From Apium graveolens (Eukaryota > Streptophyta > Magnoliopsida > Apiales > Apiaceae), in the NCBI RefSeq assembly GCF_009905375.1, contig NW_027417566.1:24494-88493 (forward strand): a stretch of DNA of 64,000 bases, written 5' to 3'. Below are positions 10,060 to 64,000 of this stretch, piece by piece. Position 1 is the first letter of the stretch. The number at the start of each line of letters is the position of its first letter. The position numbers were made by a program, and so were the translations under genes. Below the pieces are notes generated by a model. That model made no database searches. It had not been told where the DNA came from and saw only the letters and a list, made by a program, of their open reading frames with translations.

Positions 10060-10337
10060 ATGTCTTCGCGAGCGTTTTCGAAAGCCATAGTTACGAGTGT
10101 CGTCATTCTAGAAGACACACAACAACTTTGTTGTTGTAGTATCTGTCTAGATACTTTCAGTCTAGGGGGGAGTATAGCTCTCCTACCATGCAGACATTTT
10201 TCCACACAGATTGCATTCGTGCTGCCTTTGCATGTGATCATCGATGTCCTTTATGCACACATCTCCACCAACTAGGTACCATTCTTTTCGCCTTTTTCGT
10301 ACTCATTACCATCATCCTCGCCTATGTTTTGAGGTAG
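10060..10337 (+). pseudogene. RING-H2 tail-anchored protein gene, frameshifted
   Basis: The ATG at 10060 opens MSSRAFSKAIVTSVVILED. The first RING cysteines follow (CSICLDTF), then LPCRH at codons 42-46. One base is then missing at about 10198-10201: CATTTTTCCAC here against CATCTTTTCCAC in the fragment at 7514. In the shifted frame the finger resumes (FHTDCIRAAF, DHRCPLC), followed by a C-terminal membrane segment and TAG at 10335-10337. The undisturbed product would be about 92 residues, a size seen for small RING-H2 E3 ligases with a C-terminal anchor. As written, the frame leaves the RING and runs on to about 10275. A sequencing error in the T run is possible, so the call rests on one base. 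Confidence 0.7.
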
Positions 10338-10439
10338 TTTCTAGTCCTATTGTTTCCATTATTACTAATTTCAAATATTTATTAGTTTACAATTAAAGGT
10401 AAGATCTTCTAATCTTAATAACTATTAATATGCCATAGT

Positions 10440-11742
10440 GTTGGAGTCTTGGAGGTGTCGACTAACTAGAACGAAATTTGATTTTTGACTTTTGAGTCCA
10501 AGGTTTTTGAGGTGCTTAGGAGAGGGCGTGTTTCTGAGTTTTTTAGGCGTTTAGGAAGAGGGATGCTGTGTTGAGAGTGGGGACGATGAATGACGTAACG
10601 GGCTGAGCTATTTTCTGAGGTTATTGATGAACTTAATTAAGGAGTGTCTTGGAGGTGGTCTGAAGCACATGCTATATCAGACATAGAGGGAATACGTAGG
10701 TTGAACTCGAGATTTTTGAGGCTAGTACCGATGAACTTAAGAAGGATAATCTTGGATGTGTTTATAAAGGAGATGATACATTGAGGCTTTAATAGATATA
10801 CGCTATACTGATTAGGACATTATGGATAGAATAAGTTCTCATGTGATTTCGGACTTAGAAGCTTTGTTCTGAGAGTTTTTGAGGCTTTAGGGAGTGGGGG
10901 GGAGAGAGAGAGTGAGAGAGAGAGAGGCAGAGATGCTGTTGAGAGTGGGGAGTATGGATAAGTTAACGGGCTGAGAGCGATTTTCTGAGGTTATTTATGA
11001 ACTTATTTAAGGAGTGTCTTGGAGGTGTTCTGGAAGCATATGCTATGTCAGATGTATGTCAGATGTAGAGGAGATGAGTAAGTTAAACTCGAGTGATTTT
11101 TGAGGCTAGTACCGATGAACTTAAGAAGGATAGTCTTGGATGTGTTTAGAAAGGAGATGATACGTTGAGGCTTTAATGGATATACACTATACTGATCAGG
11201 ACATTATGGATAGAATAAGTTCTCATGTGATTTTTTAGAAGCTTTGTTCTAAGATTTTGAGGCATCAGAGAGAGAGAAAGAGAGAGAGAAGCAGAGATGC
11301 TTAGGAGAGGGTGTATTTGTGAGTTTTTTAGGCGTTTAGGAAGAGAGATGCTGTGTTGAGAGTGGGGACGATCAATAACTTAACGGGCTGAGCGATTTTC
11401 TGAGGTTATTGATGAACTTAATTAAGGAGTGTCTTGGAGGTGTTCTGGAAGCACATGCTATGTCAGACGTAGAGGAGATGAGTAAATTAAACTCAAGTGA
11501 TTTTTGAGGCTAGTACCGATGAACTTAAGAAGGATAGTCTTGGATGTGTTCAGAAAGGAGATGATACATTGAGGCTTTAATGGATGAATAACTTCGAGTA
11601 CATCTTGATTTTTGACTTCTAGTGTGAGAGTTTTGAGGTTTTTAGAAGCATATACACTATACTGATCAGGACATTATGGATAGAATAAGGTGGTATGTGA
11701 TTTTTGACTTAGAATCTTTGTTCTGAGAGTTTTGGAGGCATT

Positions 11743-11781
<39 letters not shown>

Positions 11782-12100
11782 CAGAGAGAGAGAGAGTGGG
11801 AAGCAGAAATGCTCTGTTGAGAGTGGGGAGGATGAATAAGTTAACGGGCTGACAGATTTTTTGAGGTTATTGATGAATAAATTAAGGATACATAAGCATA
11901 TGCTATATGAGACGTAGAAGGGATGAATAGGTTAAACTCGGGTGATTTTGAGGCGAGTAGTGATGGACTTAAGAAGGATAGTCTAGGAGGTGTTTAGAAA
12001 GGAAATGATATGTTGAGGCTTTGATGGATGAATAACTTCGGGTGCATTCTGACTTGAGAAGAAGAAGCTATGTAGAGGGTAATTTGAGAGAAATTTTACT
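10440..12100. repeat. GA-rich degenerate tandem array
   Basis: The anchor TTATTGATGAACTTAATTAA or close variants occurs near 10621, 10992, 11405 and 11866, giving units of about 370-460 bp. Each unit repeats the order GGCTGAG..., GTCTTGGAGGTG, GAACTTAAGAAGGATAGTCT, CAGGACATTATGGATAGAAT and (GA)n. Unit length varies mainly through the GA tract and internal deletions. No coding sense was found. Confidence 0.8.
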
Positions 12101-13874: not shown

Positions 13875-13938
13875 GTATGTTCCTTATCATGAACCACCTT
13901 GAAATACAAATAATAAACCATGACAGTTTAGGCTTTAG
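13875..13938 (-). pseudogene. CBP60-like relic B, part 1 (split by Sirevirus)
   Basis: About 60 bases match the 3' end of relic C (near 28075-28135), including AATAAACCATGA and TTTAGGCTTTA. The match stops exactly at the retroelement boundary and resumes after it at 27101. Nothing translatable remains. Confidence 0.6.
13934..13938. repeat. Target site duplication TTTAG (left)
   Basis: TTTAG directly precedes the TG of the left LTR and is repeated at 27101-27105 directly after the CA of the right LTR. Five bases is the usual length for copia elements. Confidence 0.95.
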
Positions 13939-15002
13939 TGTTATTCCTAGAAGACTAACAATGAGATTTACAGAAGGGGGGTTGAATGTAAATCTCAAAA
14001 CTTTTTCAAGTTTTGAGCAGTTTATAAAGTTGTGTGTTCAAGAAGAACAAGTGTGTGAATTGCTTTAAGCTAATACAGACAGATATATATTCAAGCACAA
14101 ATGTAAAGAACACAACAGACCTTAAAAACTTTTCTGGTGGATTTGTTGTTCCACCAGAGATGGTGTATTAGAAAATCTGTGTTCAACAATGTTGATCACA
14201 GCTGCATCCTAGTACAAACTAGATGAATTTTCTCTCAAGATATTTCTTAACAGCTCTGGAAAAATCTCTCTAATTACTAGCTTCTTCTTGGTTCATATAT
14301 ATTACCAAGTGTACAAGTGAAAAACAATATAAAATTACAATAGTAAAATAAGTTCTTCACTTGCTTCTTTTCCTGTTCACTCAAGTACTTTGTTGACTAT
14401 TGCAACTTTGTACAAAAGAAGAACGGCTGCTTTTTCTGTTGATCCTGAAATTCGGCTACCACATCTCAGTTTTCTCTGTCAACCCACGTGCCTCTGCTTG
14501 TAGGTACAACTACCACTTATCAACGGCTGATTAGCAGAACATCCGTTGAAGCTTTCATCCGTTGATGACTTCATCCGTTGAAGGATGTTATCCGTTGAAG
14601 CTTTCATCCGTTGATGCTCTCATCCGTTGAAGGATGTTATCCGTTGAAGCTTTAGAGACATCCGTTGAAGCTTAGCTTCTCATCCGTTGAAGGTCTTTTA
14701 AGTCATCCGTTGATACCACTTCATTTATACAAAATTACAAGGCATGAAATATTTACAATTGGCCTTCCTATCTGCATATCATCTAGTAGTCAACATGACT
14801 CATAGTTTCTCTCAACTTCTAAGAATTACAATTTTAAATACAGAGACTGAAATATGCTACAATACTAGACTTATTTCTAAGTAAAGCTACACCATCAACG
14901 GATAGCCAAAGTGGTCTTATCCGTTGAGGCTACAGACACTAAATTTCTACTTAAGTGTTTTGTTAAACATATCATCAAACTAATGCACATATATTCCTAA
15001 CA
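13939..15002 (-). repeat. 3' LTR of Sirevirus
   Basis: Bounded by TGTTA...TAACA, 1064 bp, matching the LTR at 26037-27100. In element sense it ends in a G-rich stretch near the TGTTA edge at 13939. It contains twelve ATCCGTTGA/TCAACGGAT copies, ten of them between 14541 and 14713 and two at 14895 and 14919. Confidence 0.95.
14541..14713. promoter_or_regulatory. ATCCGTTGA repeat cluster in 3' LTR
   Basis: Ten exact ATCCGTTGA copies start at 14541, 14557, 14573, 14590, 14606, 14622, 14639, 14660, 14682 and 14705. The first seven are spaced 16-17 bp apart. In the element's sense the cluster lies upstream of the LTR TATA box, a likely enhancer position. The function is inferred from position and regular spacing only. 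Confidence 0.7.
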
Positions 15003-15016
15003 ATCTCCCCCTATTT
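15003..15016 (-). promoter_or_regulatory. Polypurine tract (PPT)
   Basis: AAATAGGGGGAGAT on the minus strand abuts the 3' LTR. It primes plus-strand DNA synthesis in this family. The old Sirevirus relic has the closely similar AAATGGGGGAGAT at 35895-35907. Confidence 0.9.
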
Positions 15017-15194
15017 ATGTCTATAAGAACTGTAGGCATAAATTCAGGGTTAACTTGATGATAACAAAACACTTAACAAATATTTGAATTGAAACTAAGT
15101 AGAAATATAAAAAGTGCTGCAAAAGTGTATGTACTAGGAGGTAATTGAAGATTTACAGTATTTCCAGGGGTGCTCCTCTAGCCTGAGCAAATCA

Positions 15195-18100
15195 TCATTT
15201 TCTTCTTTGTTCCCTGGTTTTCTTTCCTAGCCCTTTGTCATTTCCCTCAATTTGGAGTTGGAGTTTTCTGAAGAATTCAGCTTCATCTTCATCACTGATA
15301 TCCAACTTAGATTGCATTTCTTTGAGAGTTTCATTGCTGGCAATCTTGAGTTGGTCTTCAAGTCTGAAAAATCTTCTGACTCCTTTGTCATCTCTAAATT
15401 CCATCAACCAATGAGGTGATTTGTGAATTTTAGTTCCCCTTTCTTGTATGAGTAAGGTTCTGGGCAAAGCATTTGGTTCCCTCCAAGTCTTCCTTATGTT
15501 GGCAATCTTGTTGAGAATTTCAGTCTTGGCTGTTCTGGTAAAGCCAGAATCCTTTTTGATGGCTGAAAAGACTCTGATCAAGGTAGAGTAGCCTTCATTT
15601 AGAATCCTGTGGAGAGGCCATGTTCTTTCCCCAGCTCCTTTATATCTGAACACTAATCTTTCTGGTAACTGTCTGTAGGCAGCTATTCCCCTTACATCCT
15701 CCAGCTCATCCAGATAGAGTTCAATGTCTGAAATTTCTTTTATGTCACAAATGTGAACATAATCATCTTTAGAAATGGGTGACTTAGGCTTAGGTTTTTG
15801 TTTTTGAGTGAATTTCTTAGAGGTTGTGGGAGGTGTAGATTTTGGTTTTCTTTTCTGTTTCTTTGGTGGTGGAAGAGTGGTTAGAAAGGTAGGCAATGTG
15901 ATGTTGTCCCAATCAATAGGTTCCTCTTTTGGAATGATTGGTTCACCATGGATATTTATAGAGGGATCAGTAACAAAAGGTTCAGGTATGGAAGGTAGTG
16001 GTTTAGATATAGATTTGGTATCTTCAGGGTTATCTTCACTCCTTCTGTGTGCCTTGGCCTTTCTTCTGTTTCCCTTCTGCCATTCCTCTCTTTCCTCCAT
16101 ATTTTCACCAAATATGCTCCCAAGAACCTCATCTAAGTTAGCAATCTTTTCTTCACCCCTGACTTCAATTCCTTTCATTTCTTTAACTTGGCTTGACTTT
16201 AGCTGTTTTTCAAGCTTTGCTTGTGCTCTTTTGTCAGCCTTTAATTGCTTGGCTTCTTCTTTCTTAGCTATTGAGAATTTGGGATGTCCTTGCATCACAC
16301 ATATGCTCTTTCCCTCTCTAATGATAATAGCTCTATTTCTCCTTACAGCCTCATCCATGGACTTTTTGAGATAGGCAATACTCCTGCCTAAGATCTTGTT
16401 CTCATCATCTTTTGAAGGAGGAAAGTCCACTTCTTTTAAAGGATTCTTTGTTGAGTCCTTATTGGATCTTTCATTGGGCTTGAGGATTATAGCTTGTAGC
16501 TCTTTGGAAGAAGCTTCTCCATCCTTAAGACTCCCTACTGGCATGAGCTCCATGTTGATTGGTTCAATCTTTGTGCTAAATTTCACAGATGTTGATTTAT
16601 TTTGTGTAGAACCAAACACCAATTGCAACCTTTCATCAATTCTCCTCCATTGTTCTTTCATTTGTATTTCAGCTGCTGCTAGCTGAATCAAATCAATTCC
16701 ATCAGATTTTCCCTTGATTTGAATGATTGGAGAGGTAGTGATGGCAGGAACTAGCACTTTAGATATCTGAATCTTTGTAGAGGGCTCTCCTTCCCCTTCC
16801 CTTTTATTCTCCCCCTTTTTGTTATCATCAAGGAGAGGGGTCAAGCCTTGTGCTTTTGCCAGCTGCATTAGGAGATTGGTTTGAGATTGTTGGTTGAGAA
16901 GAAGGGTGGCCACAGAATCTTCAATTCCTTGAACTCTGTCTTCCAACTTGGCCAGCCTTTGTTCAGTAACTGATTCCTTTTTCAATCTCGAAACCAAGTC
17001 CTGCAAAGTACCATAGGGCATGACTGAATCCAATTTTTCTGAAGTGAAGGATTTCAAGTCAGCAATATCTTTCCTGAGATCATTTAGACTCATATCTTGC
17101 TTTACTTTCTGCAACTTCATGAGATGCAGTGAGTCCAGGTGAGCTTGGAGGATAGCCTTGATATTTGCATTTGAAGTGTTCTGAATGGCCTGTTGAATAG
17201 TGATGATTTGTTTGACCAGGTGGACATTGAATTCACCTGTTCTATGCTCCTTAGTCAGGGCCCATTCAGGTAGATTAGGAATGGAACTAGGGTCTTCATC
17301 TCCCCCTATGTTCATGCTTCCATCAGAAGAAATAGAGTCATCATCATCAGAATTTACTCCAAATTCCTCAGATGGCTCACCAGCTGTAGAAGGCATCCTG
17401 TTAATAGCAGCTTTATCCCTTTGAAGAGATTCTGTTGAGTGCACTAGATGTAGTGTCCTCTCTGCCTCCTCATTGCCCTGAGCAGCCAACAGTTGATAGG
17501 CTGTCACAGGATGAGTAAAAGTGTCAGCATCCAAGGAAATGTTATCAATTACAGCTTTGTAATGTTGCTGAAATTGTCTTTCCTTTTCAGCATCATCCAC
17601 AATCATTGACTCATGAGCAATGGCTGGTTCCACCCTTGTATCAACTGTACCTGCTTTTCTCTCTTTTTCTCTATGTTCTTGCATCAGGGGCTCCCCCTGG
17701 CTCACACATCTCACTCCCTCACCTTCACCTTCTAAGGTGGTACTCCACTCACTGACTTTTGCCATGCTGGAAGAAATAGCATGCATTTTTGTGCTCTCAA
17801 TCTCTCCTTTTGCCTGGGAGCAACCCAGCCTCTCACTCAAATTTTCACTCCCTGCCCTCAATCCTAAAAGTGATTGCACAGTATTCATGTCTTCTACACT
17901 TGGAATCATTTCAGTTATTTGTGTAGAGACTATCAACGGATGTGGAATATCCGTTGAAGTTGAAACTGTTGTTATCAACGGATAACTGCTGTTAAGCTTA
18001 TCCGTTGAAGAGCAACCACTTGTCAACGGATGAGTGATATCCATTGAAGAAGGAAAAGAAGATGAAATTGAAAGTGATATAACTGTTGAATCTGTATAGA

Positions 18101-19799
18101 TTGATTTGATATGTGTTGATACAGATCCTTCAATTATATCTGAAAGAATTTGCGGGTGATCCAACAAATCATCTAAAAGATGATGATCACCTGTATTTGA
18201 GTGGGGCTCCTCCCTGAGTTGTAAAGAGGGAGAATCAGGAATTGATGGGAATAGCATATCCACATCCAGAGATGGTGAAGAAGTATTTGGTGATTGATGT
18301 GTAGTTATTGTGAGAGAATGGGGCTGTGACTCCACATTTATTGGAGTCACATCAAACTGAGTTTGAGAAGGCACAGAGACAGATGGATGTATCTGTGCAG
18401 TGTGTGCACCCTGTGTAGAAGATTGGGTTCTAGCCTTCTTTCTTCTAATAAAGGCTTTTGTAGGTGAGTGTTTGGCTTTAGTGTCCCTCCCTCTTTTGTT
18501 CTGTGTTCCTGGATGGGAACTCTTTTCAATAGTAACATCCTTTTGGGAGGATGCTACTAGGGATGTGCTAGAGACCTTTTCAACCACCACAGCTTTTTGA
18601 GAAACTGGGGCTTGGCTAGCTTGGGAAGCACTCAACTTTCCTTCCTTATCCTGGGGGTTTCTTTGATGTTCACCCCTCCCCTCACCACTCACACCCTGAT
18701 CACTTCCCTCAGGGTTAATGGTTGTTGTTACAACTGTTGTCTTTTGAGAAACAACAGAGGTGGTTTTCTTTGTCTTGGATTTTGAAAGTTTGGATTTGGT
18801 GACCTTGGTAGAAATCTGTTGGGGCATTGACACAGATTTCATGGCCACACTAGAAGATAAAGAAATAGAGGGGTTGGAAGAAGTAGGAGTTGTAGAAGCA
18901 ATTACCTCACCTACCTGGGGTGCATTCATGATTGGTAAATATACCAATTGCACACTGCTGTTAAGATCCATTCTCTTCAAGTCTGCAAGAACTCTTTTCT
19001 CTTGTGTCCAGCACTTGAGTTTATTATTCTCATTGATTATGACTAAACCTTCAGCAACATGGTTAGCCAATAACATAAAGAATCTAGCATAATAGATGTT
19101 ATTAGGTCTATTAGCTTTGTTACCTAATCTAGTACCTAATTCTAGCATCACATAGTTGCTAAAGTTAAAGTACCTATCAGAAACAAGCATATAGAACATG
19201 TTAACAAGAGATGAAGTTATGGCATCAAAATTACTAATTTTCCCAGAGAAAACCTTTATGAAGGCATCCCCAAGAAAACTCCATTCTTTCCTAAGGCCTT
19301 TTCGTCTAATACCCCCTAAATTAGCAGAGTTAAGAGAGTAACCTATGGAATCTAACATGCTGGATACATCACTATCAGTGTGTGGTGTCATGGCATTGTT
19401 CTCAGGTAATTTAAAACATGCTTGTAAGTCATCACAGTTAATACAGTGATTTTTACCTTTGAGAGTGAAGGAGATAGTCATATCCATGGAGTTGAACTCA
19501 GCAGTTGTCCAAATCTCTTCAACTACTTCACAGAAAATCGTTGGGGCTTCCAGCATTGCATAGCTAAGTTTACAGTTTTTGATGAAGTCCATCATTTTGT
19601 GATAATCTGAGTGGGCTTCATTCTTCTCTACCAGAGCTATGAAATTATTCTTCTCGTAGATGAACCCAGATTGAGACATAATCTTCACGACTGGTGCCAT
19701 TGTTGTGAGTAGAAATTGCAGAGAATAACTTGAGGGTTTTGCAGAGAGAAAATGGTAAATGCTTGAAATTCTAAGAAAGCGTAAAGTAATAATGAACAA
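15195..19799 (-). CDS. Sirevirus third ORF, 1534 residues, function unknown
   Basis: This is a long open frame downstream of pol, in the position where some Sireviruses carry a so-called env-like ORF. Residues 1-33 are hydrophobic, but the true start may be Met34 (MAPVVKIMSQSGF, base 19700), because a globular N-terminal region (about 35-280) begins there. A Ser/Thr/Pro/Lys-rich stretch follows, with basic clusters near 435-465 (KRGRDTKAKH, IRRKKARTQ) that look like nuclear-localisation signals. A predicted coiled-coil segment lies at about 860-990, then Lys/Glu-rich sequence. A second compact domain at about 1345-1510 includes VHICDIKEI, ERLVFRYKG, RTWPLHRILNEGY and LMEFRDDKG. I see no membrane anchor or glycoprotein signature, so an envelope role is not supported. 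Five TCAACGGAT/ATCCGTTGA motifs fall in linker codons at about 590-623. The frame could also be a captured host gene. Confidence 0.85.
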   Translation of the reverse strand: MFIITLRFLRISSIYHFLSAKPSSYSLQFLLTTMAPVVKIMSQSGFIYEKNNFIALVEKNEAHSDYHKMMDFIKNCKLSYAMLEAPTIFCEVVEEIWTTAEFNSMDMTISFTLKGKNHCINCDDLQACFKLPENNAMTPHTDSDVSSMLDSIGYSLNSANLGGIRRKGLRKEWSFLGDAFIKVFSGKISNFDAITSSLVNMFYMLVSDRYFNFSNYVMLELGTRLGNKANRPNNIYYARFFMLLANHVAEGLVIINENNKLKCWTQEKRVLADLKRMDLNSSVQLVYLPIMNAPQVGEVIASTTPTSSNPSISLSSSVAMKSVSMPQQISTKVTKSKLSKSKTKKTTSVVSQKTTVVTTTINPEGSDQGVSGEGRGEHQRNPQDKEGKLSASQASQAPVSQKAVVVEKVSSTSLVASSQKDVTIEKSSHPGTQNKRGRDTKAKHSPTKAFIRRKKARTQSSTQGAHTAQIHPSVSVPSQTQFDVTPINVESQPHSLTITTHQSPNTSSPSLDVDMLFPSIPDSPSLQLREEPHSNTGDHHLLDDLLDHPQILSDIIEGSVSTHIKSIYTDSTVISLSISSSFPSSMDITHPLTSGCSSTDKLNSSYPLITTVSTSTDIPHPLIVSTQITEMIPSVEDMNTVQSLLGLRAGSENLSERLGCSQAKGEIESTKMHAISSSMAKVSEWSTTLEGEGEGVRCVSQGEPLMQEHREKERKAGTVDTRVEPAIAHESMIVDDAEKERQFQQHYKAVIDNISLDADTFTHPVTAYQLLAAQGNEEAERTLHLVHSTESLQRDKAAINRMPSTAGEPSEEFGVNSDDDDSISSDGSMNIGGDEDPSSIPNLPEWALTKEHRTGEFNVHLVKQIITIQQAIQNTSNANIKAILQAHLDSLHLMKLQKVKQDMSLNDLRKDIADLKSFTSEKLDSVMPYGTLQDLVSRLKKESVTEQRLAKLEDRVQGIEDSVATLLLNQQSQTNLLMQLAKAQGLTPLLDDNKKGENKREGEGEPSTKIQISKVLVPAITTSPIIQIKGKSDGIDLIQLAAAEIQMKEQWRRIDERLQLVFGSTQNKSTSVKFSTKIEPINMELMPVGSLKDGEASSKELQAIILKPNERSNKDSTKNPLKEVDFPPSKDDENKILGRSIAYLKKSMDEAVRRNRAIIIREGKSICVMQGHPKFSIAKKEEAKQLKADKRAQAKLEKQLKSSQVKEMKGIEVRGEEKIANLDEVLGSIFGENMEEREEWQKGNRRKAKAHRRSEDNPEDTKSISKPLPSIPEPFVTDPSINIHGEPIIPKEEPIDWDNITLPTFLTTLPPPKKQKRKPKSTPPTTSKKFTQKQKPKPKSPISKDDYVHICDIKEISDIELYLDELEDVRGIAAYRQLPERLVFRYKGAGERTWPLHRILNEGYSTLIRVFSAIKKDSGFTRTAKTEILNKIANIRKTWREPNALPRTLLIQERGTKIHKSPHWLMEFRDDKGVRRFFRLEDQLKIASNETLKEMQSKLDISDEDEAEFFRKLQLQIEGNDKGLGKKTREQRRK

Positions 19800-20250
19800 T
19801 CAGAAGGGCTTATATGCTTTCAAAGAAAAAAAAATAAATAAAGGATTAATCAATAAATAGGTGTTAGTGAATTTCAGCCGTTTAAGAATAAACTGTAAGT
19901 ATTCTAGTAACTACCTTTAAAACCAATACATACAGATGTATGTATGGTATCAACGGTTAAGAAAATAGAATCAACGGCTGTGAAACACCTCAAACGTCTG
20001 ATGTGACATTTCAATGGATAATGTAAATTGTCATCCGTTGAAAGGTACTTCAGCTTTATCCGTTGACGGATAAAAGTTCCAGAGATATACTTGTCTTTCA
20101 ACGGATAATGAATATCCGTTGATAGAGCAATTTTGACTTTCAACGGATAGGGAACATCCGTTGATGGAATAAACTTTGTTAAAAGTCAAATTTGTTCTAG
20201 CAACTAATATATTTCAGGCTCCACATCAAATTGCAAAGAAGACATGAATT
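19800..20250. promoter_or_regulatory. pol-ORF3 spacer with motif cluster
   Basis: The 450 bp non-coding gap holds six exact copies of the 9-mer in both orientations, at 20033, 20058, 20098, 20114, 20140 and 20156. Diverged relatives (TCAACGGTT, TCAACGGCT, TCAATGGAT) lie at 19949-20019. Several opposed pairs could form short hairpins, for example 20098/20114 and 20140/20156. Its place just upstream of ORF3 suggests an internal promoter, splice control or RNA element for ORF3, but nothing here proves it. Confidence 0.6.
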
Positions 20251-23200
20251 TTAAGAGTAATTAAGCATACCTAGCTCACTTACCAATCTTGTGAATGTTG
20301 ATTCATCAAGTGGCTTGGTAAATATGTCAGCAATTTGTTGTTCACTTGGAACAAAATGTAGTTCCACTGTACCATTCATGACATGCTCCCTGATGAAGTG
20401 GTACTTTATATCAATGTGCTTGGTCCTTGAGTGCTGCACAGGATTCTCTGTTATGGCTATGGCACTTGTGTTGTCACAAAAGATAGGTATTCTATCAACA
20501 TGAAGTCCATAATCAAGGAGTTGATTCCTCATCCATAACATTTGAGAACAGCAACTTCCAGCAGCAATGTATTCAGCCTCAGCTGTTGAAGTAGAGACTG
20601 AATTTTGCTTTTTGCTAAACCATGATACAAGCTTGTTTCCCAGGAATTGACAGGAGCCTGTTGTACTTTTCCTGTCTATTTTGCAACCTGCATAGTCTGC
20701 ATCTGAATAACCAATTAGATCAAAGCCAGATTCTCTAGGATACCAAATTCCTAAATTTGGTGTACCCTTGAGATATCTGAAAATTCTCTTGATAGCAATT
20801 AAGTGAGACTCCCTAGGATCAGCTTGAAATCTCGCACACAGACATGTAGCAAACATTATATCTGGTCTGCTAGCAGTTAAATATAAAAGTGAACCAACCA
20901 TGCCTCTATAACTTGTAATGTCCATAGACCTTTCAGTCTTATTTAATTCAAGTTTGGTGGCAGTGGCCATGGGAGTTTTTGCAGATGAACATTCCATTAA
21001 GTCAAACTTCTTTAAAAGATCATGAATATATTTAGTTTGACTAATGAAAATTCCATTACTAACTTGTTTAATTTGTAAACCAAGAAAATAGGTTAGTTCT
21101 CCCATTAGGCTCATTTCATAATTACTTTGCATTAGCTTAGCAAACTTCTTACAAAGATTATTATCTTTAGAACCAAATATTATGTCATCTACATAAATTT
21201 GAACAAGTATACTAGAGCCATTAACATTTCTAAAGAAGAGAGTTTTGTCAACAGTACCTCTAGTGAAGTGATTCTCCAAAAGAAATTTTGATAATGTTTC
21301 ATACCAGGCTCTAGGTGCTTGCTTCAGTCCATAGAGTGCTTTCAACAGATAATACACATAGTCTGGAAAATTTGGATCTTCAAATCCTGGAGGTTGACTT
21401 ACATAGACTTCTTCCTCTAATTTCCCATTTAGAAATGCACTCTTGACATCCATTTGATAGACTTTGAAATTGGCATGGGCTGCATAGGCTAGAAAGATTC
21501 TGATAGCTTCAAGTCTTGCAACAGGAGCATATGTCTCATCAAAATCTATTCCCTCTTGCTGAGAATAGCCTTTAGCAACCAATCTGGCTTTATTCCTTAT
21601 GATAATGCCATTTTCATCCATCTTATTTCTGAATACCCATTTTGTATCAATAGGACTCTTGTTCTTTGGTTTGGGTACCAGCTTCCAAACTTGGTTTCTC
21701 TCAAATTGGTTTAGCTCTTCCTGCATAGCTAGTATCCAATCTGGATCCAATAAGGCTTCTTCCACTTTCTTAGGTTCCTCCTGAGATAGAAAACTACTAT
21801 ACAGACATTCATCTTGAGTAGCTCTTCTTGTTTGCACTTTAGATGATGCATCACCAATGATCAGTTCAAAGGGATGATTCTTGGTCCATTTCCTTTGAGG
21901 TGGAAGATGAGCTCTAGATGAGGTGATCTCAGTATTGTCATGATGTGAGATAGAGTTTTGATTAGTTGAAACTCCCCCTGAGTTGTTGGTCCTTTGCAGG
22001 GAACTTGGAGTTCCATCAATTAATGATGTAAATTGATTATCAGTTGATGAGCTATGATCAACGGATGCTTCATTAAGTACTTCAACGGATGATGCACAAT
22101 GTCTTTCAACGGATGCTGAATTTTGTGCATTATCCAGGAGCAAATTTTGTATTCCTTTTGAAGTGTCGTCTCCATCAATCTCTTCTTCACTATCATCACA
22201 ATATATTTCAATATTGTCAAATTTGAGTCTCTCATAATGTTCCTCATCTGTTAGTCCATCAATCTTTTTATCATCAAACACAACATGCACAGATTCCATA
22301 ACAATGTTGGTTCTTAGATTGTAGACCCTATAAGATTTTCCAGCTGAATAACCAACAAATATTCCTTCATCAGCCTTTGCATCAAACTTCCCTTTATGGT
22401 CAGATTGATTCCTTAGTATAAAACATTTACATCCAAAGACATGAAGAAAGTTTAGAGTTGGTTTTCTTTTCTTGAACAACTGATAAGGAGTCATGCCTTT
22501 AGCTTGATTGATCAGAGAAATATTTTGAGTGAAACAGGCACAATTAACAGCTTCAGCCCAAAAATATGTTGGTAACTTTGATTCTTCAAGCATTGTTCTG
22601 GCAGCCTCAATTAAAGATCTGTTCTTTCTTTCAACTACCCCATTTTGCTGAGGTGTTCTTGGAGCTGAGAACTCATGCATGATTCCATTTTCTTCACAGA
22701 ACAGCCTTAATGTCAAATTCTTGAACTCAGTTCCATTGTCACTCCTGATGTTTCTTACTTTCAAGTCAGGATGATTATTGACTTGCCTGATGTGATTGAT
22801 AATGATTTCACTTGCCTCATCCTTTGATCCAAGAAAATAGACCCATGAGAACTTTGAGAAATCATCTACAATCACTAGGCAATATCTTTTTCTTGCTATT
22901 GACAATACATTGACTGGTCCAAACAAATCCATATGTAGCAGCTGTAATGGTTCATCAATTGTTGTTTCAAGCTTCTTCTGAAATGATGCTTTCCTTTGTT
23001 TGCCTTTCTGACAAGCATCACACAGACCATCCCTTGAGAATTCAACAAGAGGAATTCCTCTTACTAAGTCCTTTTTGACTAGTTCATTCATTGTCTTGAA
23101 ATTCAAATGGGATAGCTTCTTGTGCCATAGCCAACTCTCAACTGAACTTGCTTTGCTGAAAAGACAAGTAATAGATTCTGCATCTGTAGAGTTGAAGTCA

Positions 23201-23556
23201 GCTAAGTACACATTTCCTTTTCTAACTCCAGTTAGAACCACTTTGTTGTCTTTCTTACTAGTGACAACACAGGCTTCAGAATTGAAGGAAACTGTATTCC
23301 CTCTATCACATAGTTGACTGATACTCAGTAAGTTGTGCTTGAGACCATCAACTAATGCAACTTCTTCAATGATGACATTCCTTGTTGAAATCAAGCCATA
23401 TCCCATAGTAAACCCTTTGCTGTCATCTCCAAAGGTTATGCTGGGGCCAGCTCTCTCTTTAAACTCTGTGAGCAGGGAGAAATCTCCAGTCATGTGTCTT
23501 GAACAGCCACTGTCCAAGTACCATAGATTTCTTCTATTTTCCTGCACACCACAAAA
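20251..23556 (-). CDS. Sirevirus pol polyprotein
   Basis: Numbered from the GTG codon at 23547, the 1098 residues carry, in order: aspartic protease (DSG at 12-14, in [13 protein letters not shown]); the GAG-pre-integrase zinc module (H142, H147, C176, C179); integrase core with D207, D270 and E306 (a DD35E triad); a variable linker (about 430-600); reverse transcriptase with D700 and YVDD at 785-788; and RNase H with D949, E990 and D1025, ending near [14 protein letters not shown]. All catalytic residues are present and the frame is unbroken. No ATG precedes the protease, and the frame is first open at 23556. It lies +1 to gag and does not overlap gag's stop, so expression needs recoding, splicing or re-initiation. 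Three TCAACGGAT copies sit in the linker (22058, 22082, 22106). Confidence 0.97.
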
Positions 23557-23560
23557 TCAA

Positions 23561-25975
23561 TCAATTTGATTTTGGTACCCAAGTTTCCTTGGGTCCATTC
23601 TTGTTAGCCTTTCTCCTAGACTTCATTCCTCCTGCATCTTTAGACTTAGGTGAGTTTGAGTCAACCTTGGTCTTAGATGTGGTTGGTTGAGGTGTAGGGT
23701 TAGTCACAACATTATCCAGCACATTTATAGTATTATTAGGCATGGATTGTGCATACATGTTATTCCACATTGGCATATTGTATGGCAATTGAGGCATACT
23801 GAATGCAGCAAGATAAGAATTGTTAAAATATGGCATGTTTGCAAAATGTGCATAAGGATTTTGTTGAGACATAACAGGCAGAGCATGTAGAGGTGATACA
23901 GACATGTTAGGCATGGAAGAGGGTACAGTTATGGGAGTTTTCTTAATAGATTTACAGTTAGCAGATAGATGATTAACACTACTACAATGCACACAGCTTT
24001 TTCTAGGAGCATACTTGTCAGGTGTGTAATTGTTATGTTTGTTAACTCCTACCTTCCCATTTCTGTTGGATTTCCTTTTGGATTCCTTTTTATCCTCAAC
24101 CATCTTGAGCCTATTGTTTAACTGTTCTAAGGTCATGTGCCCTACATTCACCTTTCTGACATCTTTGGATGTGCTTGCTCCTTCTTTGACAAAGTTCTTT
24201 GAAGTTGAACCAAACTTTTTGTTGAGTTTCTTTAGATTTTCTCTTTTAGAAACATCTGCCTGTTTTAATTGAGGAACCTTCAACGGATGTTCCTTTTCTT
24301 CCTTCAACGGATAACTTTCATCATCCGTTGATTCCACATCCGTTGACAGTCCATCAATTAATTCCAGTTTCTTTTTATTTTTATCCCAGGCAGTTTCACA
24401 GAATGATTCAATTCCTTGGACTTTGGCAATTTGAGCACTTACATCCCTAGATGTTTTCCAGGCTTTAATCACCTCTTGCTCTTTCTCTAATTGATTGGAA
24501 AGTATTTCTACTTTCTTAATAGATTCAGCTAGTTCATTTTCAACAGATACACAATGCAGCTTAGTCTTTTCTAGGTCAATTAACTTATCTTCTAACACAG
24601 CATTTCTATTACTTAAAAACAGATTGTTCTCTTTAATCCTACTATTTTCTTTAGCAAGAGATTTAAGAGATACACGCAAATGATACAGTTCAGTAGACAT
24701 GTCATTAAAAGCATCATTGCACTCTTCTTTAGTAAGCTGTGTTATATCAGTAGTAATTACCTGGTTGCTTGATGAACTAACTTCATTCTCCTCAGAATCA
24801 GCCATGAGAGCCAAGTTAACATATTCCATGTCTTCATCCTCTTCTTCTCCATCAGCTGCCCAGTCTCTTTCTTGAGTAATGAAAGCCCTTTCCTTCTGTT
24901 TGAGCAGATCAAAATATTTCTTTTTGTAATCTACTTGATCAAACTTCTTCTTTTCAGAGGTTGGCTTTCTGCACTCACTTGCAAAGTGTCCACTCATACC
25001 ACAATTAAAACACTTGAACTTGGATTTGTCCACCATGTTCTTATGGGGTTTAGTGGCTCTAGTGTTTTTCCTGAACTTCATCTTTGCAAATCTCCTGGAC
25101 AGAAATGCAAGATGCTCATCAATACCATCAGAGTCATCTTGACTGGAGTTGTCTTCATTTTCAGCAACTTGCCCTTTACCCTTGTCTGATTCTGGATTTC
25201 TTACACCATCTTTGGAGCTTGATGTAGATCTCACAGTTTCTTTTCTGCATTCTTTCTCATTTTCAGCTACCAATGCAACTGAACCTCCTTTCTTTCTCCC
25301 CCTCTCCAATACCTCATCCTGTTCCAACTCTAGTTCATAAGTCTTCAAGATTCCATATAATCTTTCAAGAGTAAAGTCCTTATAATCTTGAGAGTTTCTT
25401 AAGGAAACAGTCATGGGTTTCCATTCCTTTGGTAAGGATCTCAAAAATTTAAGATTTGAATCCTTCACCTGGTACACTCTACCATACAGCTTCAGTCCAT
25501 TCAACAGTTTTTGGAATCTATTGAATGTGTCATTTAAAGATTCATTTTCTTCAAAATGAAAGTGCTCATACTGTTGAATGAGAAGCTGCATTTTGTTCTC
25601 TCTTACTTGTTCTGTACCTTCACACAGCAGCTGAACTGTGTCCCAAACCTCTTTGGCAGTTGAACAATTTATCACATTATCAAACATATCCTTGTCAAGA
25701 CCATTAAACAAAATGTTCATAGCCTTCTTATCCTTGTGGACTTCTTCTGTGTCTTCCATTGTCCATTCTGCTCTAGGTTTTGGAATGGATTGACCAACAG
25801 CAATTGTGGCCGTAGCAACTGTGGCTACTTTGTGGGGAATGTGAGGACCATTCTCAATGCAGTTTACATAACCTTCATCTTGGGAGAGTAGATGAAGGTG
25901 CATTTTCACCTTCCAGTGGTGATAACTGTCTTTGTCAAGAACTGGGATCTTTACTCCAATATCCTTCTTACTCAT
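23561..25975 (-). CDS. Sirevirus gag (capsid/nucleocapsid) polyprotein
   Basis: The 804-residue frame starts MSKKDIGVKIPVLDK and ends at TGA 23563-23561. The N-terminal half has the copia gag pattern (WDTVQLLCEGTEQVRENK near 111-128; FNRFQKLLNGLKLYG near 151-165). A first CCHC zinc knuckle, CFNCGMSGHFASEC, lies at 322-335 and a second, CVHCSSVNHLSANC, at 661-674, with a long heptad-rich segment between (about 420-515). Two knuckles and this length are large for copia gag but in keeping with Sireviruses. Four copies of the 9-mer (24280-24346) encode the repeated PLK and STD residues at about 545-567. The protein should form the virus-like particle and bind the genomic RNA. Confidence 0.95.
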   Translation of the reverse strand: MSKKDIGVKIPVLDKDSYHHWKVKMHLHLLSQDEGYVNCIENGPHIPHKVATVATATIAVGQSIPKPRAEWTMEDTEEVHKDKKAMNILFNGLDKDMFDNVINCSTAKEVWDTVQLLCEGTEQVRENKMQLLIQQYEHFHFEENESLNDTFNRFQKLLNGLKLYGRVYQVKDSNLKFLRSLPKEWKPMTVSLRNSQDYKDFTLERLYGILKTYELELEQDEVLERGRKKGGSVALVAENEKECRKETVRSTSSSKDGVRNPESDKGKGQVAENEDNSSQDDSDGIDEHLAFLSRRFAKMKFRKNTRATKPHKNMVDKSKFKCFNCGMSGHFASECRKPTSEKKKFDQVDYKKKYFDLLKQKERAFITQERDWAADGEEEDEDMEYVNLALMADSEENEVSSSSNQVITTDITQLTKEECNDAFNDMSTELYHLRVSLKSLAKENSRIKENNLFLSNRNAVLEDKLIDLEKTKLHCVSVENELAESIKKVEILSNQLEKEQEVIKAWKTSRDVSAQIAKVQGIESFCETAWDKNKKKLELIDGLSTDVESTDDESYPLKEEKEHPLKVPQLKQADVSKRENLKKLNKKFGSTSKNFVKEGASTSKDVRKVNVGHMTLEQLNNRLKMVEDKKESKRKSNRNGKVGVNKHNNYTPDKYAPRKSCVHCSSVNHLSANCKSIKKTPITVPSSMPNMSVSPLHALPVMSQQNPYAHFANMPYFNNSYLAAFSMPQLPYNMPMWNNMYAQSMPNNTINVLDNVVTNPTPQPTTSKTKVDSNSPKSKDAGGMKSRRKANKNGPKETWVPKSN

Positions 25976-26022
25976 CTTTGTTAGATTCCAAGATCTTTAA
26001 ACTCTTTGTGTGTCAAGAGCCT

Positions 26023-26034
26023 GCTCTGATACCA
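26023..26034 (-). promoter_or_regulatory. Primer binding site (tRNA-iMet)
   Basis: TGGTATCAGAGC on the minus strand is complementary to the 3' end of plant initiator-methionine tRNA, two bases inside the 5' LTR edge. It marks the right-hand LTR as the 5' LTR and fixes element polarity. Confidence 0.95.
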
Positions 26035-26392
26035 ATTGTTATTCCTAGAAGACTAACAATGAGATTTACAGAAGGGGGGTTGAATGTAAATCTCAAAACT
26101 TTTTCAAGTTTTGAGCAGTTTATAAAGTTGTGTGTTCAAGAAGAACAAGTGTGTGAATTGCTTTAAGCTAATACAGACAGATATATATTCAAGCACAAAT
26201 GTAAAGAACACAACAGACCTTAAAAACTTTTCTGGTGGATTTGTTGTTCCACCAGAGATGGTGTATTAGAAAATCTGTGTTCAACAATGTTGATCACAGC
26301 TGCATCCTAGTACAAACTAGATGAATTTTCTCTCAAGATATTTCTTAACAGCTCTGGAAAAATCTCTCTAATTACTAGCTTCTTCTTGGTTC

Positions 26393-26402
26393 ATATATAT
26401 TA
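26393..26402 (-). promoter_or_regulatory. Probable LTR TATA box
   Basis: The minus strand reads GGTAATATATATGAACC here, the best TATA-like sequence in the LTR. It lies about 240 bp downstream of the ATCCGTTGA cluster. The transcription start is not determined. The same sequence exists in the other LTR near 14295-14304. Confidence 0.5.
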
Positions 26403-26638
26403 CCAAGTGTACAAGTGAAAAACAATATAAAATTACAATAGTAAAATAAGTTCTTCACTTGCTTCTTTTCCTGTTCACTCAAGTACTTTGTTGACTATTG
26501 CAACTTTGTACAAAAGAAGAACGGCTGCTTTTTCTGTTGATCCTGAAATTCGGCTACCACATCTCAGTTTTCTCTGTCAACCCACGTGCCTCTGCTTGTA
26601 GGTACAACTACCACTTATCAACGGCTGATTAGCAGAAC

Positions 26639-26811
26639 ATCCGTTGAAGCTTTCATCCGTTGATGACTTCATCCGTTGAAGGATGTTATCCGTTGAAGCT
26701 TTCATCCGTTGATGCTCTCATCCGTTGAAGGATGTTATCCGTTGAAGCTTTAGAGACATCCGTTGAAGCTTAGCTTCTCATCCGTTGAAGGTCTTTTAAG
26801 TCATCCGTTGA
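26639..26811. promoter_or_regulatory. ATCCGTTGA repeat cluster in 5' LTR
   Basis: The ten exact copies match those at 14541-14713, shifted by 12098 bases. In the 5' LTR this is the copy placed to control transcription of the element. Regular 16-17 bp spacing over the first seven copies suggests a protein array or a tandem duplication history. Confidence 0.7.
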
Positions 26812-27100
26812 TACCACTTCATTTATACAAAATTACAAGGCATGAAATATTTACAATTGGCCTTCCTATCTGCATATCATCTAGTAGTCAACATGACTCA
26901 TAGTTTCTCTCAACTTCTAAGAATTACAATTTTAAATACAGAGACTGAAATATGCTACAATACTAGACTTATTTCTAAGTAAAGCTACACCATCAACGGA
27001 TAGCCAAAGTGGTCTTATCCGTTGAGGCTACAGACACTAAATTTCTACTTAAGTGTTTTGTTAAACATATCATCAAACTAATGCACATATATTCCTAACA

Positions 27101-27360
27101 TTTAGTTCTGGGCTCAGCCTTTCAGGTCGACTGTCGGAGTTCAAAAAAATCAGAATTTCCTCATCAAAATGGAGAGGAGAGTATATTGGACCGCAGAGAC
27201 CTTGTTTAAAAGAACCTAATTGACTTGATCCCCAATGCAATTGATAGACATAAGACTATCATATAATGGGATACCTGCTTGCTCACATGTATCTAACAAC
27301 AGAAAATCCCAGCTGTTAATTGACTAAGATTTTCTGATAATCTAAGATTGTTGACCCATA
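27101..27360 (-). pseudogene. CBP60-like relic B, part 2
   Basis: The sequence resumes after the retroelement with the target duplication TTTAG and TTCTGGGCTCAGCCTTTCAG. It aligns with relic A near 2630-2820 and relic C near 28137-28290. Relics of WEQ/ITWDS-type codons are visible on the minus strand, but the frame is broken repeatedly. Confidence 0.6.
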
Positions 27361-31228: not shown

Positions 31229-32534
31229 TGTTAGGAAATGAATAACACACAGAGGGGGTGAATATGTTTTACTGTTTTTGGGCTTTTCTTGAATGTTTAT
31301 GGCTGATCAAAATAAATTAAATCGTGTAGTGAAATGTGTTCATTCAGAAATTAAATTTGCAAAAAATAGAGAACACAGATCTTCAAAAGTCACTTAATTT
31401 TCTATTAAAATTAAGACTGTTTTGCAACAAAATTTCTAGGTTCTTTGTTAATAAAGAGCTTAGCTTCTCCTTGAGAGTGTTACAAGAAATTTGATCTAAA
31501 TTATTACCTCTGACTTAAGGACCAGTGTTAACTTTATAATTCAGTTAACTGCCGGTTTACACAGTGTACAATAAGACATGCTATTAGCTTTTCTAAACTG
31601 TCACTTGTCATTTCTATTTATAGAATAGTAGATCTTTCATTTCTGGCTTAGCATATCTTTAGCATCCTGTGATAATTTTAATCTCCCTCTGTCAGTTAAT
31701 CTTCACCATTGATCTTGCACATTATTCAAACTGCTTTTTGTAGACTTGTCAATCCAGCTGTTTGGATTGTTTGTTGATTGTTAATCTTGAATATTGAACT
31801 GGTTTGTGATTTTGTACTTTGAGAGTTTTACTCGAGATCTCCAATTAGGCACATAGAGATCTTGACATCTCGATAAGTATAATGACTTATCGAGATCTCT
31901 AATGCTCTAGTGAATTTGACTTATAGAGCTCTCTGAGTTCTCGAATAAAACTTTAGCTTGTCGAGATCTCTCAGCATCATGTCTTTACTTTGTCTTGTTG
32001 ACAACTTAGGGTTCTCTAGTGAATTTTGACTTATCGATATCTCTGAGTTCTCTAGTAGACTTAGACTCATCGATAACTCAGAGTTCTCTAATGAATGTAG
32101 ACTTGTCGATAACTCTGAGTTCTCTAGTGAAGAAATGACTTGTCGATATCTCCAACCTTCATGTCTTCTTGACTTGTCGATATCTCACTGAGTTCTCTAG
32201 TAGCTTTCCTGGCTTCTCGATAAGTCATTTGGAGTTCTCGAATGATATAACACTAAATCTGTGACTTGTAGAGATCCTGACTTAGAGTATTTTTATCCAA
32301 ACAGTTTTATTCAACTCCAAGCTTTTTCAAAATTCTTCTGAGGCATGATCTTCTTCCGGATAGAATCCTTAGGCTTGATATTGTTTCAGGAAAAAGACTC
32401 CAGTCTGCTCCTTTGCATTTTTACAGACTTTTAAGTGTTACAAGTACAAATACAAACTAGGATAACAATACAACTTACTTAGGGTTGACAAAATATCTTA
32501 GTCTTGTTAAAGTACAGGCATGTCTTTTACAACA
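31229..32534 (-). mobile_element. Solo Sirevirus LTR, 1306 bp
   Basis: Ends TGTTAGG...ACAACA with perfect 5 bp target duplications CTCTC at 31224-31228 and 32535-32539, so it is a solo LTR left by LTR-LTR recombination. In reverse complement its start (TGTTGTAAAAGACATGCC) matches the LTR at 35908 (TGTTGTGCAAGACATGCC). A G-rich stretch near the TGTTAGG end is typical of this lineage. Its middle (31850-32280) repeats phrases such as GACTTATCGAGATCTCT and GAGTTCTCTAGTG many times. Confidence 0.8.
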
Positions 32535-32539
32535 CTCTC

Positions 32540-35150: not shown

Positions 35151-35907
35151 TGTGCAAGACATATCTTAATATAACAAGACTAAGTTATATTGATAGAAAA
35201 ATTCTCAGATAATGACTACAATAATCAACAAAATGAACTCATATGTAAAGTCTCTGTGGAAACTCTGGGAGAGGTAAGAATCTATTTCAAGAATGGCTTA
35301 GTCAACATATTCAAGAAAGAAATAATGGAGAACTTCTCAACAGTGGAGTTTGAAAGGGTGATAAGTTAATGATTGAGAATGATAAATTCACAAGGATGAG
35401 GAAGGTTTAGCTAACTGAAATGTTGGTAAATATAAATGAAAGAAGGACAAGGGAGAAGGTTGAGATGAAAGAGGGAGCTATCAGAAAGGCTGAGGAGTTG
35501 GACAGATTGGAAAGAAGATCAAATGAGCTCAAGGCTAGAGGATTAAGTAGGGTTTCTGAAAATGATGTGTTCCTGAATATAGAACTCACTGACTATCAAG
35601 GTACAGACTTGAGCATCTTGGCAGTTACTCACTAGAAGAATGGCTGAAACTTGTGAAAGCACTAAGACGACCTGAGATTATGAAGAACTGGAATGTCTTG
35701 TTAGACTAAAGAACTTGATTAGATCTCAGTCAGGGTATAAAACTTCAGTTAGTTCTGTAACTCATTTTTTTCTTTGTAACAGCTAGATGACATTTATGTA
35801 TAAAAGAATGTCCTTTGTATATCTGTGTTGTTTTTTATTTTAGTTTGGGATTAGTCTTGATCAAGCATGAATATGTTACAAGTGATCTTCTCACAAATGG
35901 GGGAGAT
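35151..35907 (+). mobile_element. Sirevirus relic: LTR stub and 3' internal region
   Basis: 35151-35195 repeats the first 45 bases of the LTR at 35908 with a few changes, marking a truncated upstream LTR. What follows is about 700 bp of internal sequence. Its only long frame (35420-35635) is a charged, coiled-coil-like Lys/Glu/Arg stretch, perhaps the tail of the element's last ORF. The segment ends in the polypurine tract AAATGGGGGAGAT (35895-35907). Confidence 0.6.
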
Positions 35908-39235: not shown

Positions 39236-39239
39236 ACTC

Positions 39240-63905: not shown

Positions 63906-64000
63906 CAGGCCTGTCAACGGATCAGATTCAGATCGGATTCATCTAAATTCATATTCAAATTCATTTAGATTTATCATATCGGATCGGACGGGTCACAACC
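63906..64000. mobile_element. hAT-like element, left end only
   Basis: Starts CAGGCCTGTCAACGGATC like 8278 and is cut by the window edge. Two small deletions near the end (CATATCGG, GGACGGG) distinguish it from the left copy. Confidence 0.6.

Follow-up and report, generated by a model that had tools for sequence, protein, structure and literature searches.

A short DNA word dispersed through the LTRs, spacer and genes of an Apium graveolens Sirevirus, with a tail that changes in concert among related families

The DNA analysed here, a 64-kb stretch of Apium graveolens referred to as the window, contains an LTR retrotransposon with the organization of a Sirevirus (Ty1/copia). It has the copia gene order with integrase ahead of reverse transcriptase (RT), a gag with a CCHC knuckle and a third long gene, ORF3, between pol and the 3′ LTR. 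A C-rich integrase signal, AACCCCCCTTCTG, was located by eye some 50 bases short of the LTR end. The polypurine tract and its AT/TG junction are of the Sirevirus form, of which the genome holds 36,983 instances, and the junction of this tract with the 3′ LTR was the probe used for sampling relatives. The features of the element, including the clusters of a repeated motif, are as follows.

13934..13938: target-site duplication TTTAG, with the second copy at 27101-27105
13939..15002, minus strand: 3′ LTR, 1064 bp, 12 exact motif copies (direct array at 14541-14713, inverted pair at 14895/14919)
15003..15015, minus strand: polypurine tract abutting the 3′ LTR (GGGGGAGAT followed directly by TGTTAG), a Sirevirus-type junction
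15195..19799, minus strand: ORF3, in an env-like position; stop-to-stop frame of 1534 codons with the first Met at residue 34
17933..18047: ORF3 cluster, five exact copies and one with one mismatch, alternating in orientation and coding STD, HPL or YPL
19800..20250: pol-ORF3 spacer, six exact copies (20033-20164) including two tight inverted pairs; one-mismatch forms at 19950, 19971 and 20011
20251..23556, minus strand: pol open frame with pre-integrase, integrase, SH3 and RVT_2 domains
22058..22114, minus strand: pol cluster, three copies at 24-nt spacing coding SVE, SVE and SVD, between the integrase SH3 and RT
23561..25996, minus strand: gag open frame with Retrotran_gag_2 and a CCHC zinc knuckle
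24280..24346: gag cluster, four copies coding STD, STD, YPL and HPL
26037..27100, minus strand: 5′ LTR, 1064 bp, identical to the 3′ LTR, 12 exact motif copies

A first-pass annotation had reported about 42 copies of a 9-mer in this element. An exact search returned 42 within 13939-27100, at the positions it had given: 12 in each LTR, 4 in gag, 3 in pol, 6 in the spacer and 5 in ORF3. The whole window holds 44 exact matches against a mean of 0.34 in 100 whole-window shuffles, and with one mismatch allowed, a check the annotation had called for, 65 against 11.5 expected. Its remark that the flanking DNA has no copies needs a small correction, as single copies lie at 8286 and 63914 and share one repeat context. 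When the identical LTRs are counted once, 30 unique sites are left, 12 of them in codons. The full site is the 10-mer YATCCGTTGA, the base before the 9-mer being C (18) or T (12) at all 30; it is present in both orientations (10 versus 8 among the internal sites) and in three codon phases. The 3.3-Gb genome contains 405,245 copies of the 9-mer (202,456 + 202,789) and 31,150 of its reversed string (15,643 + 15,507), an excess of about 13-fold; these counts cover those two strings, with ATCCGTCGR, ATCAGTTGA and YATCAGAACTTR outside them. Elsewhere in the window, enriched octamers also come from short arrays, subterminal repeats and a satellite, so octamer enrichment as such is not special to Sireviruses. 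What is special to the Sirevirus case is the spread of the word through several genes.

The coding copies lie in linkers, as had been claimed, according to domain searches of gag and pol and in ORF3 as well. The motif residues of gag (551-573) are outside Retrotran_gag_2 (80-219) and the zinc knuckle (328-344), those of pol (481-500) are between SH3 (363-431) and RVT_2 (621-864), and those of ORF3 (590-623) are in a protein with no Pfam match at E 0.01. Motif clusters occupy both LTRs and recur every 2-3.4 kb between them. Their spacing is even (CV 0.20, P = 0.004 versus uniform placement), which may simply reflect the positions of the linkers.

The window element was compared with a diverged copy, L022. 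Internal motif columns differ at 5 of 153 positions, versus 92 of 372 within 30 nt of them and 835 of 5530 at all other positions; the conservation of motif columns also holds when pol and ORF3 are taken by themselves (p = 8e-6). The genes are nearly free of CpG, with observed/expected ratios of 0.07 for gag, 0.04 for pol and 0.06 for ORF3 versus 0.68 for the flanks, and 30 of the 50 CpGs in the 3′ LTR and internal region lie inside the 9-mer. Sites were both gained and lost between copies: L022 retains 8 of the 12 LTR sites of the window intact, 13 of its 17 internal sites are intact in the window, and another copy, L015, has no spacer cluster. On the evidence of these sequence comparisons, selection at the motif sites works on the DNA level. 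The flank comparison and CpG retention, together with the concerted change of tail at orthologous sites described below, support the earlier suggestion that selection has spread a cis-acting signal.

In a related element, L044, whose pol DNA is 82-84% identical to that of the window, the core ATCCG is kept while TCGA or TCGG replaces the tail TTGA. The switched tail is seen in the LTR, gag, pol, spacer and ORF3. As judged by eye, 9 of the 12 coding sites of the window are intact and switched in L044, 1 is unswitched and 2 have decayed. The two classes hardly mix, with 91 TTGA versus 0 TCGR in TTGA-type elements and 40 TCGR versus 4 TTGA in TCGR-type elements. In a more distant Sirevirus group, YATCAGAACTTR, with the unrelated tail AACTT, occupies the equivalent compartments, and most of its internal sites share one orientation. 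The core is therefore nearly constant, ATC[C/A]G, and the tail varies by family. As the word of the distant group has no CpG, CpG retention is not essential in general.

Other Apiaceae gag homologues change tail class at the same gag linker. Sixty were aligned, 11 were given no class, and a length filter excluded 9 of 50 classed rows from the tree. TTGA-like rows occur widely across this tree and the TCGR-like ones fall into a single group, which suggests that the change there was probably from TTGA to TCGR, that is, a gain of CpGs. The exact pair ATCCGTCGG-N7-ATCCGTCGG occurs just 5 + 4 times in the genome, indicating that the TCGG class is without a tandem array of the TTGA type. The first-pass annotation had held that relatives lacking the motif at equivalent sites would speak against it. 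Such relatives exist to the letter, in that they carry another word there; as a refutation they fail, because their internal word matches their own LTR word, and this strengthens the functional reading. Diverged copies could not be sampled with a 341-bp gag query, since all 40 scored among its 1,538 candidates were 100% identical, and tblastn found no relatives in viral contigs. L043, with 4 ATCCGTTGA beside a junction, was left out because the pol of an element like that of the window covers this stretch, as were the ATCCGTCG copies of L018, where there is a reversed LTR-like piece; L013, which carries 22 CTGATCGA, is outside the comparison. The TTGA/TCGR pattern is also compatible with pairing of inverted copies.

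Concerted switching in coding and non-coding compartments alike is difficult to account for unless the word has a reader whose specificity changes. We tentatively propose, as a reading with a reasonable chance of being correct, that YATCCGTTGA is the putative recognition site of a co-evolving, sequence-specific protein that acts on double-stranded DNA in a VANC-like role. The motif is conserved, dispersed and switched in concert, and from this we infer that a protein would read the word, that this reader may be encoded by the element or adapted to it, and that the outcome would be anti-silencing or activation. The putative factor would bind the core ATC[C/A]G together with the family-specific tail, at clusters placed where the proteins of the element tolerate the motif. 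In some lineages its specificity would have changed and the sites of the element would have followed. Once bound, it would most likely keep the chromatin of the element open or transcribable and so counter silencing, as VANC does in Arabidopsis.

ORF3 would be the first candidate for the reader. It has no recognised DNA-binding domain, as its Pfam matches were sub-threshold (none at E 0.01, some up to E 1); no relative of solved structure was found for it, and its two ends, when modelled, gave a mean pLDDT of 50. Homologues were scanned separately, with 7 of 10 included and 3 outside. A Myb_DNA-bind_4 match in 1 of 11 ORF3 rows (E = 0.019) is absent from those 7 and was taken as chance. Transposase_32 matched weakly in 3 of the 7 (E 0.013-0.018), short of the cut-off. 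In the available text of Bousios et al. 2010 (PMC2829016), 4 of 13 elements are without ENV and yet have LTR motifs, so ORF3 cannot be a requirement for every LTR motif. A more specific version of our proposal is Sirevirus self-recognition, in which an element-encoded protein, most likely ORF3, would bind the family word throughout LTRs and codons and shield that family alone from silencing, with tight co-evolution switching the tail at most sites and altering the element's own Gag, Pol and ORF3; we regard this version as unlikely.

A host transcription factor offers another explanation. Classical MYB cores include CAACGG and CAACTG, and the G2/M MSA element, which is read by MYB3R, has the core AACGG. 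The word includes CAACGG, 35 of the 50 CpGs fall in CCGTT/AACGG cores, and the carrot word TCAACTGAT, inferred from peptides, would still suit a MYB core. The LTR array would then be a MYB-type enhancer, the internal copies extra enhancers, and families would switch host factor. Like the motifs that Bousios et al. place upstream of the TATA box (PMC2829016), the array occupies the first LTR half. However, the TCGR word (CGACGG) and YATCAGAACTTR occupy the same compartments without a MYB core, and an LTR promoter has no need of coding sites in gag, pol and ORF3, so we consider this explanation possible but somewhat doubtful. An element acting in genomic RNA, as hairpins of inverted copies or as a packaging or structure signal, is quite improbable. 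Although, of the 13 pairs that internal neighbours form within 30 nt, 8 are inverted, many of them in the spacer and ORF3, the LTR array is nearly all direct (18 of 20 neighbour pairs in the same orientation), as is the pol cluster, and the distant group has its internal sites mostly in one orientation. The 10 to 8 division of the internal sites in the window argues in addition against a signal on a single RNA strand. The orientations thus make the RNA structure option of the first-pass annotation unlikely as a general role.

It is very improbable that the word lacks function and consists of slippage or template-switching copies, with the TTGA/TCGR difference due to CpG decay. The LTR array does contain tandem units of 16 and 49 bp and looks tandemly duplicated, and to that extent the copying mechanism suggested earlier stands; for the internal sites it is disfavoured, as is copying of longer units, because their flanks are not shared. 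Base counts around the sites, by inspection, revealed sharing beyond the 10-mer just where neighbouring copies stand a fixed distance apart. A C-to-T change at CpG does turn TCGA into TTGA, but decay would strike the other CpG of the word equally and would also yield TCAA. There are few one-mismatch forms next to 30 TTGA in the window, where the core CpG is intact by definition, the gag tree suggests that the change probably created CpGs, and motif columns are better conserved than their flanks. Neutral CpG decay is accordingly disfavoured. Selection on the peptides (STD, PL, SVE/SVD, and SSD in the distant group), for instance as linker phosphorylation sites, is hardly credible. The coding sites of the distant group that were translated, from four loci, all read SSD. 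The word of the window, on the other hand, codes three unrelated peptides and fills the non-coding LTR and spacer too, and all nine STD/HPL/YPL of gag and ORF3 are encoded by exactly this word, which disfavours peptide-level selection in this family. In pol, two STD are encoded by other words.

Should the proposed reader be encoded by the element, an abundant group of plant retrotransposons would have a counterpart to VANC anti-silencing, and the genes of a mobile element would be an instance where a DNA-binding code prevails over the choice of amino acids. The concerted switch makes a long-known oddity accessible to testing, as a word paired with a putative reader.

Among known systems, the MSA element/MYB3R site resembles the present word in that TCAACGGAT includes AACGG. 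It differs in that sister families drop this core and keep the arrangement: AACGG is lost at most TCGR-class sites and absent from YATCAGAACTTR.

Repeated motifs (RM boxes) in Sirevirus LTRs and before env were already known (Bousios et al. 2010, PMC2829016), and the present case extends them by a new variant. As far as the available text of that paper goes, the two share many near-identical short copies in the first LTR half and upstream of ENV, a CGG/CCG core, a word of each element's own and clusters that form CpG islands. With 12 copies per LTR and 6 in the spacer, our element exceeds the eight that define RM in the LTR and upstream of ENV, and two RM elements with extra copies at the ENV start can be likened to it. 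The RM unit is a palindrome; in our element the LTR array and the pol cluster consist of direct half-sites, and pairing is partial elsewhere, with inverted pairs yielding CGG-CCG in the spacer, ORF3 and gag. Copies within the codons of gag and pol and far inside ORF3, and a concerted tail switch between related families, distinguish our case and were not found in the available part of that paper. Nor did the accessible literature on these motifs provide a demonstrated function; Bousios et al. propose stress-related factors and call for reporter tests.

The VANC system offers a functional precedent in the accessible parts of its literature. In related elements VANC21 and VANC6 bind different motifs, that of VANC21 being nine bases long, and the action of VANC is hypomethylation across whole elements (Hosaka et al. 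2017, PMC5735166). The VANC/VANDAL motifs (PMC5735166; Sasaki et al. 2023, PMC10398659) are, like ours, short, family-specific, tandem and repeated many times, and they differ between related families, as ours do. The VANDAL21 coding probes tested had no VANC21 motifs (PMC5735166), while 12 of our 30 unique sites are in codons. VANC thus represents a DNA transposon with a known reader and a mainly non-coding motif, whereas the present case is an LTR retrotransposon with a candidate reader and a motif found in codons as well.

The word ATCCGTTGA fills a single retrotransposon of the window:
13939-27100, minus strand: Sirevirus-type copia element, intact-looking, with identical 1064-bp LTRs and a TTTAG target-site duplication

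Its genes are gag, pol (in which integrase precedes RT) and ORF3, an open frame of 1534 codons. Among 29 ORF3 homologue hits, all named ones were from Apium, Heracleum or Daucus and the other two were ENA records, which places the host in the Apiaceae. The family is young, since all 40 scored genomic copies of a 341-bp gag piece (of 1,538 candidates) were identical to the window.

Exact-match counting confirmed the 42 copies of the 9-mer in this element, at the coordinates reported in the first-pass annotation. The accompanying remark that no copies were noticed in the flanks does not quite hold, as the 9-mer was found twice outside the element. These single copies, at 8286 and at 63914, lie in the same repeat context, and one repeat family may therefore recur at both window ends. 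Arrays with CCTCAAAA lie at 10327-11953 and 55481-56119. The genome-wide count that the annotation had called for, made over 3.33 Gb, showed a 13-fold excess of the 9-mer over its reversed string; the pair ATCCGTTGA-N7-ATCCGTTGA occurred 20,953 + 21,199 times and its control 0 times. With all sites set in one orientation, the base preceding the word was C or T in 30 of 30 unique sites, so the site is YATCCGTTGA. Base counts at the internal sites, by inspection, showed no further shared flanking bases save neighbouring copies at 16-nt spacing.

The coding sites fall outside Pfam domains, in agreement with the earlier placement in linkers. They occupy three codon phases and both orientations, giving the peptides STD, (H/Y)PL and SV(E/D), and the non-coding LTR and spacer are also filled with the word. 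Phases, orientations and non-coding copies argue, in the window, against the peptide as what is selected.

A diverged copy, L022 (identity 79% in the LTR and 75-87% in internal pieces), was compared with the window element through piecewise alignments, in which the sites of either copy counted as motif columns. Internally, 5 of 153 motif columns differed versus 92 of 372 positions within 30 nt (p = 2e-10), and 835 of 5,530 among all other positions. The comparison with flanks gave p = 8e-6 for pol and ORF3 alone; in the LTR, 3 of 105 motif columns differed versus 44 of 217. Intact sites numbered 12 of 14 tested (window sites in L022) and 13 of 17 (L022 sites in the window) internally, and 8 of 12 and 8 of 10, respectively, in the LTR. 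Because few columns differ yet site sharing is incomplete, motif bases are held, yet whole sites are gained and lost. The spacer cluster was absent from L015, a relative with 94-95% identity.

Relatives were drawn from contig C1 by way of polypurine-tract/3'LTR junctions. Out of about 100 such junctions listed, and a genome total of 36,983, the sample took the first 20 in order (10-kb stretches) and the seven listed with the TTGG form (2.1-kb stretches). L037 (LTR side) and L044 (internal part) are one element, 82-84% identical to the window in pol DNA and 68-70% in gag and ORF3 stretches. Its word is ATCCGTCG[A/G], with the tail TCGA or TCGG (TCGR) in place of TTGA; copies number six on the LTR side, four each in the gag and pol linkers, and three each in spacer and ORF3. 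The pol-linker copies keep the 24-nt spacing of the window. There, ATCCGTTGA itself has a single copy on the LTR side and another inside. Another element of this kind (L038/L045) carries 13 TCGR and 2 TTGA, and L017 has 7 and 0, whereas four TTGA-type elements together have 91 TTGA (window 30, L015 23, L022 27, and 11 in L020, counted in its LTR alone) and no TCGR; sites of one element are not independent observations. In a site-by-site alignment read by eye, the window's 12 coding sites correspond in L044 to nine intact switched words (two adjoining alignment gaps), one unswitched and two decayed. For the ORF3 pair at 18000 and 17975, both cores are unaltered, as are the 16 bases that separate them, and both outer tails are changed. 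At L039, one more Sirevirus-type junction, the LTR side shows enrichment for AAATCGACT/CTAGTCGA; this candidate for yet another family word was not found in the internal piece, L046.

Among gag homologues, 60 of 74 were alignable over the linker, with motif-like peptides (STD with PL, PS, QL or other forms). Word class was assigned by eye for 49 of these 60 plus the window. When 41 of the 50 classed rows were placed on a tree, with linker columns left out, the class changed at least six times; the TTGA-like class was widespread, TCGR-like rows formed one group, the QL class took two changes, and eight rows were mixed. The same ORF3 linker reads STD/HQL in carrot (P0008) and PTD/HPS/YPS in an Apium homologue (P0001), and the pattern is lost in the Heracleum rows P0002-P0006. 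For other Apiaceae we infer the underlying gag and ORF3 DNA words from protein alone. One plant-type gag homologue, P0058, carries the label Rhizophagus irregularis (41 members, on a contig of 7.3 kb) and is probably carrot-root DNA within a fungal assembly.

Of the 20 sampled junctions, our grouping places 14 in a more distant Sirevirus group, with pol pieces 43-75% identical in protein. In 14 of 14 loci, two of which (L024 and L025) are overlapping stretches of genome, the top enriched 8-mer was part of YATCAGAACTTR, whose tail is AACTT, with 9-18 copies per locus where 0.5-1.1 would be expected; L023 and L027 showed the weakest enrichment. Its sites lie near the gag end and in the same pol linker, the pol-ORF3 interval, ORF3 and the LTR. 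The flanks look random (136 unique contexts), and the start YATC[C/A]G is common to this word and the window's. L013 and L018 have similar junctions and different top words; L018 also has 9-10 copies of the distant group's word. Upstream of the Sirevirus-type junction L013, CTGATCGA occurs in 22 copies.

The window element's genes (15195-25996) are CpG-poor, with observed/expected counts of 6/85 in gag, 5/113 in pol and 12/186 in ORF3 (ratios 0.04-0.07, versus 0.68 in flanking DNA). Across the 3'LTR and internal region, the exact 9-mer holds 30 of 50 CpGs and CCGTT cores hold 35. Internal parts of the 14 distant loci are also CpG-poor (0.09-0.50) and their word lacks CpG; CpG is therefore not essential to the arrangement. 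Beside this young element's genes, most other sampled Sirevirus internal stretches were CpG-poor. A satellite array of ~174-bp units (39299-42080), most containing ACCGTACGGT, has a ratio of 1.88 across 39200-42200, far higher than the rest of the window. At 31743-36580, a repeated word around ACTTGTCGACAAGT forms two opposed blocks, in a layout that resembles the subterminal repeats of DNA transposons.

The word stands in both orientations and is conserved whether or not the DNA is coding; its core is conserved, and its tail changes at nearly all sites in concert. This is the pattern expected of a binding site in double-stranded DNA whose reader co-evolves with it, and we predict such a site from these sequence patterns. 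A putative reader would bind the fixed word, and the family-specific tail would change as the reader co-evolves. The main rival is a host MYB-type factor, which the TTGA word fits; the TCGR and AACTT words do not. An RNA-level element appears improbable, and a word with no function slightly more so. The putative reader may act along the whole element from tiled clusters, in the way that VANC acts in VANDAL transposons; those transposons lose methylation over their entire length (PMC5735166). Gaps between the window element's clusters are 2.4, 2.2, 2.0, 2.1 and 3.4 kb (CV 0.20; P = 0.004 versus uniform placement, a null that ignores linker positions), and such even tiling would suit a factor of this kind.

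A 2016 study reportedly concerned palindromes of maize Sirevirus elements. Bousios 2010 (PMC2829016) described repeated motifs of Sirevirus elements that are located in the LTRs and also upstream of ENV, have a CGG-CCG core and come with CpG islands, and the window's word appears to be of the same class, as far as the part of that paper compared here extends. Titles and abstract beginnings in a literature search contained no report of gag or pol copies or of a concerted tail switch. Both were found here and are absent from what that part of Bousios 2010 (PMC2829016) describes, and within the reach of this comparison we claim them as new.
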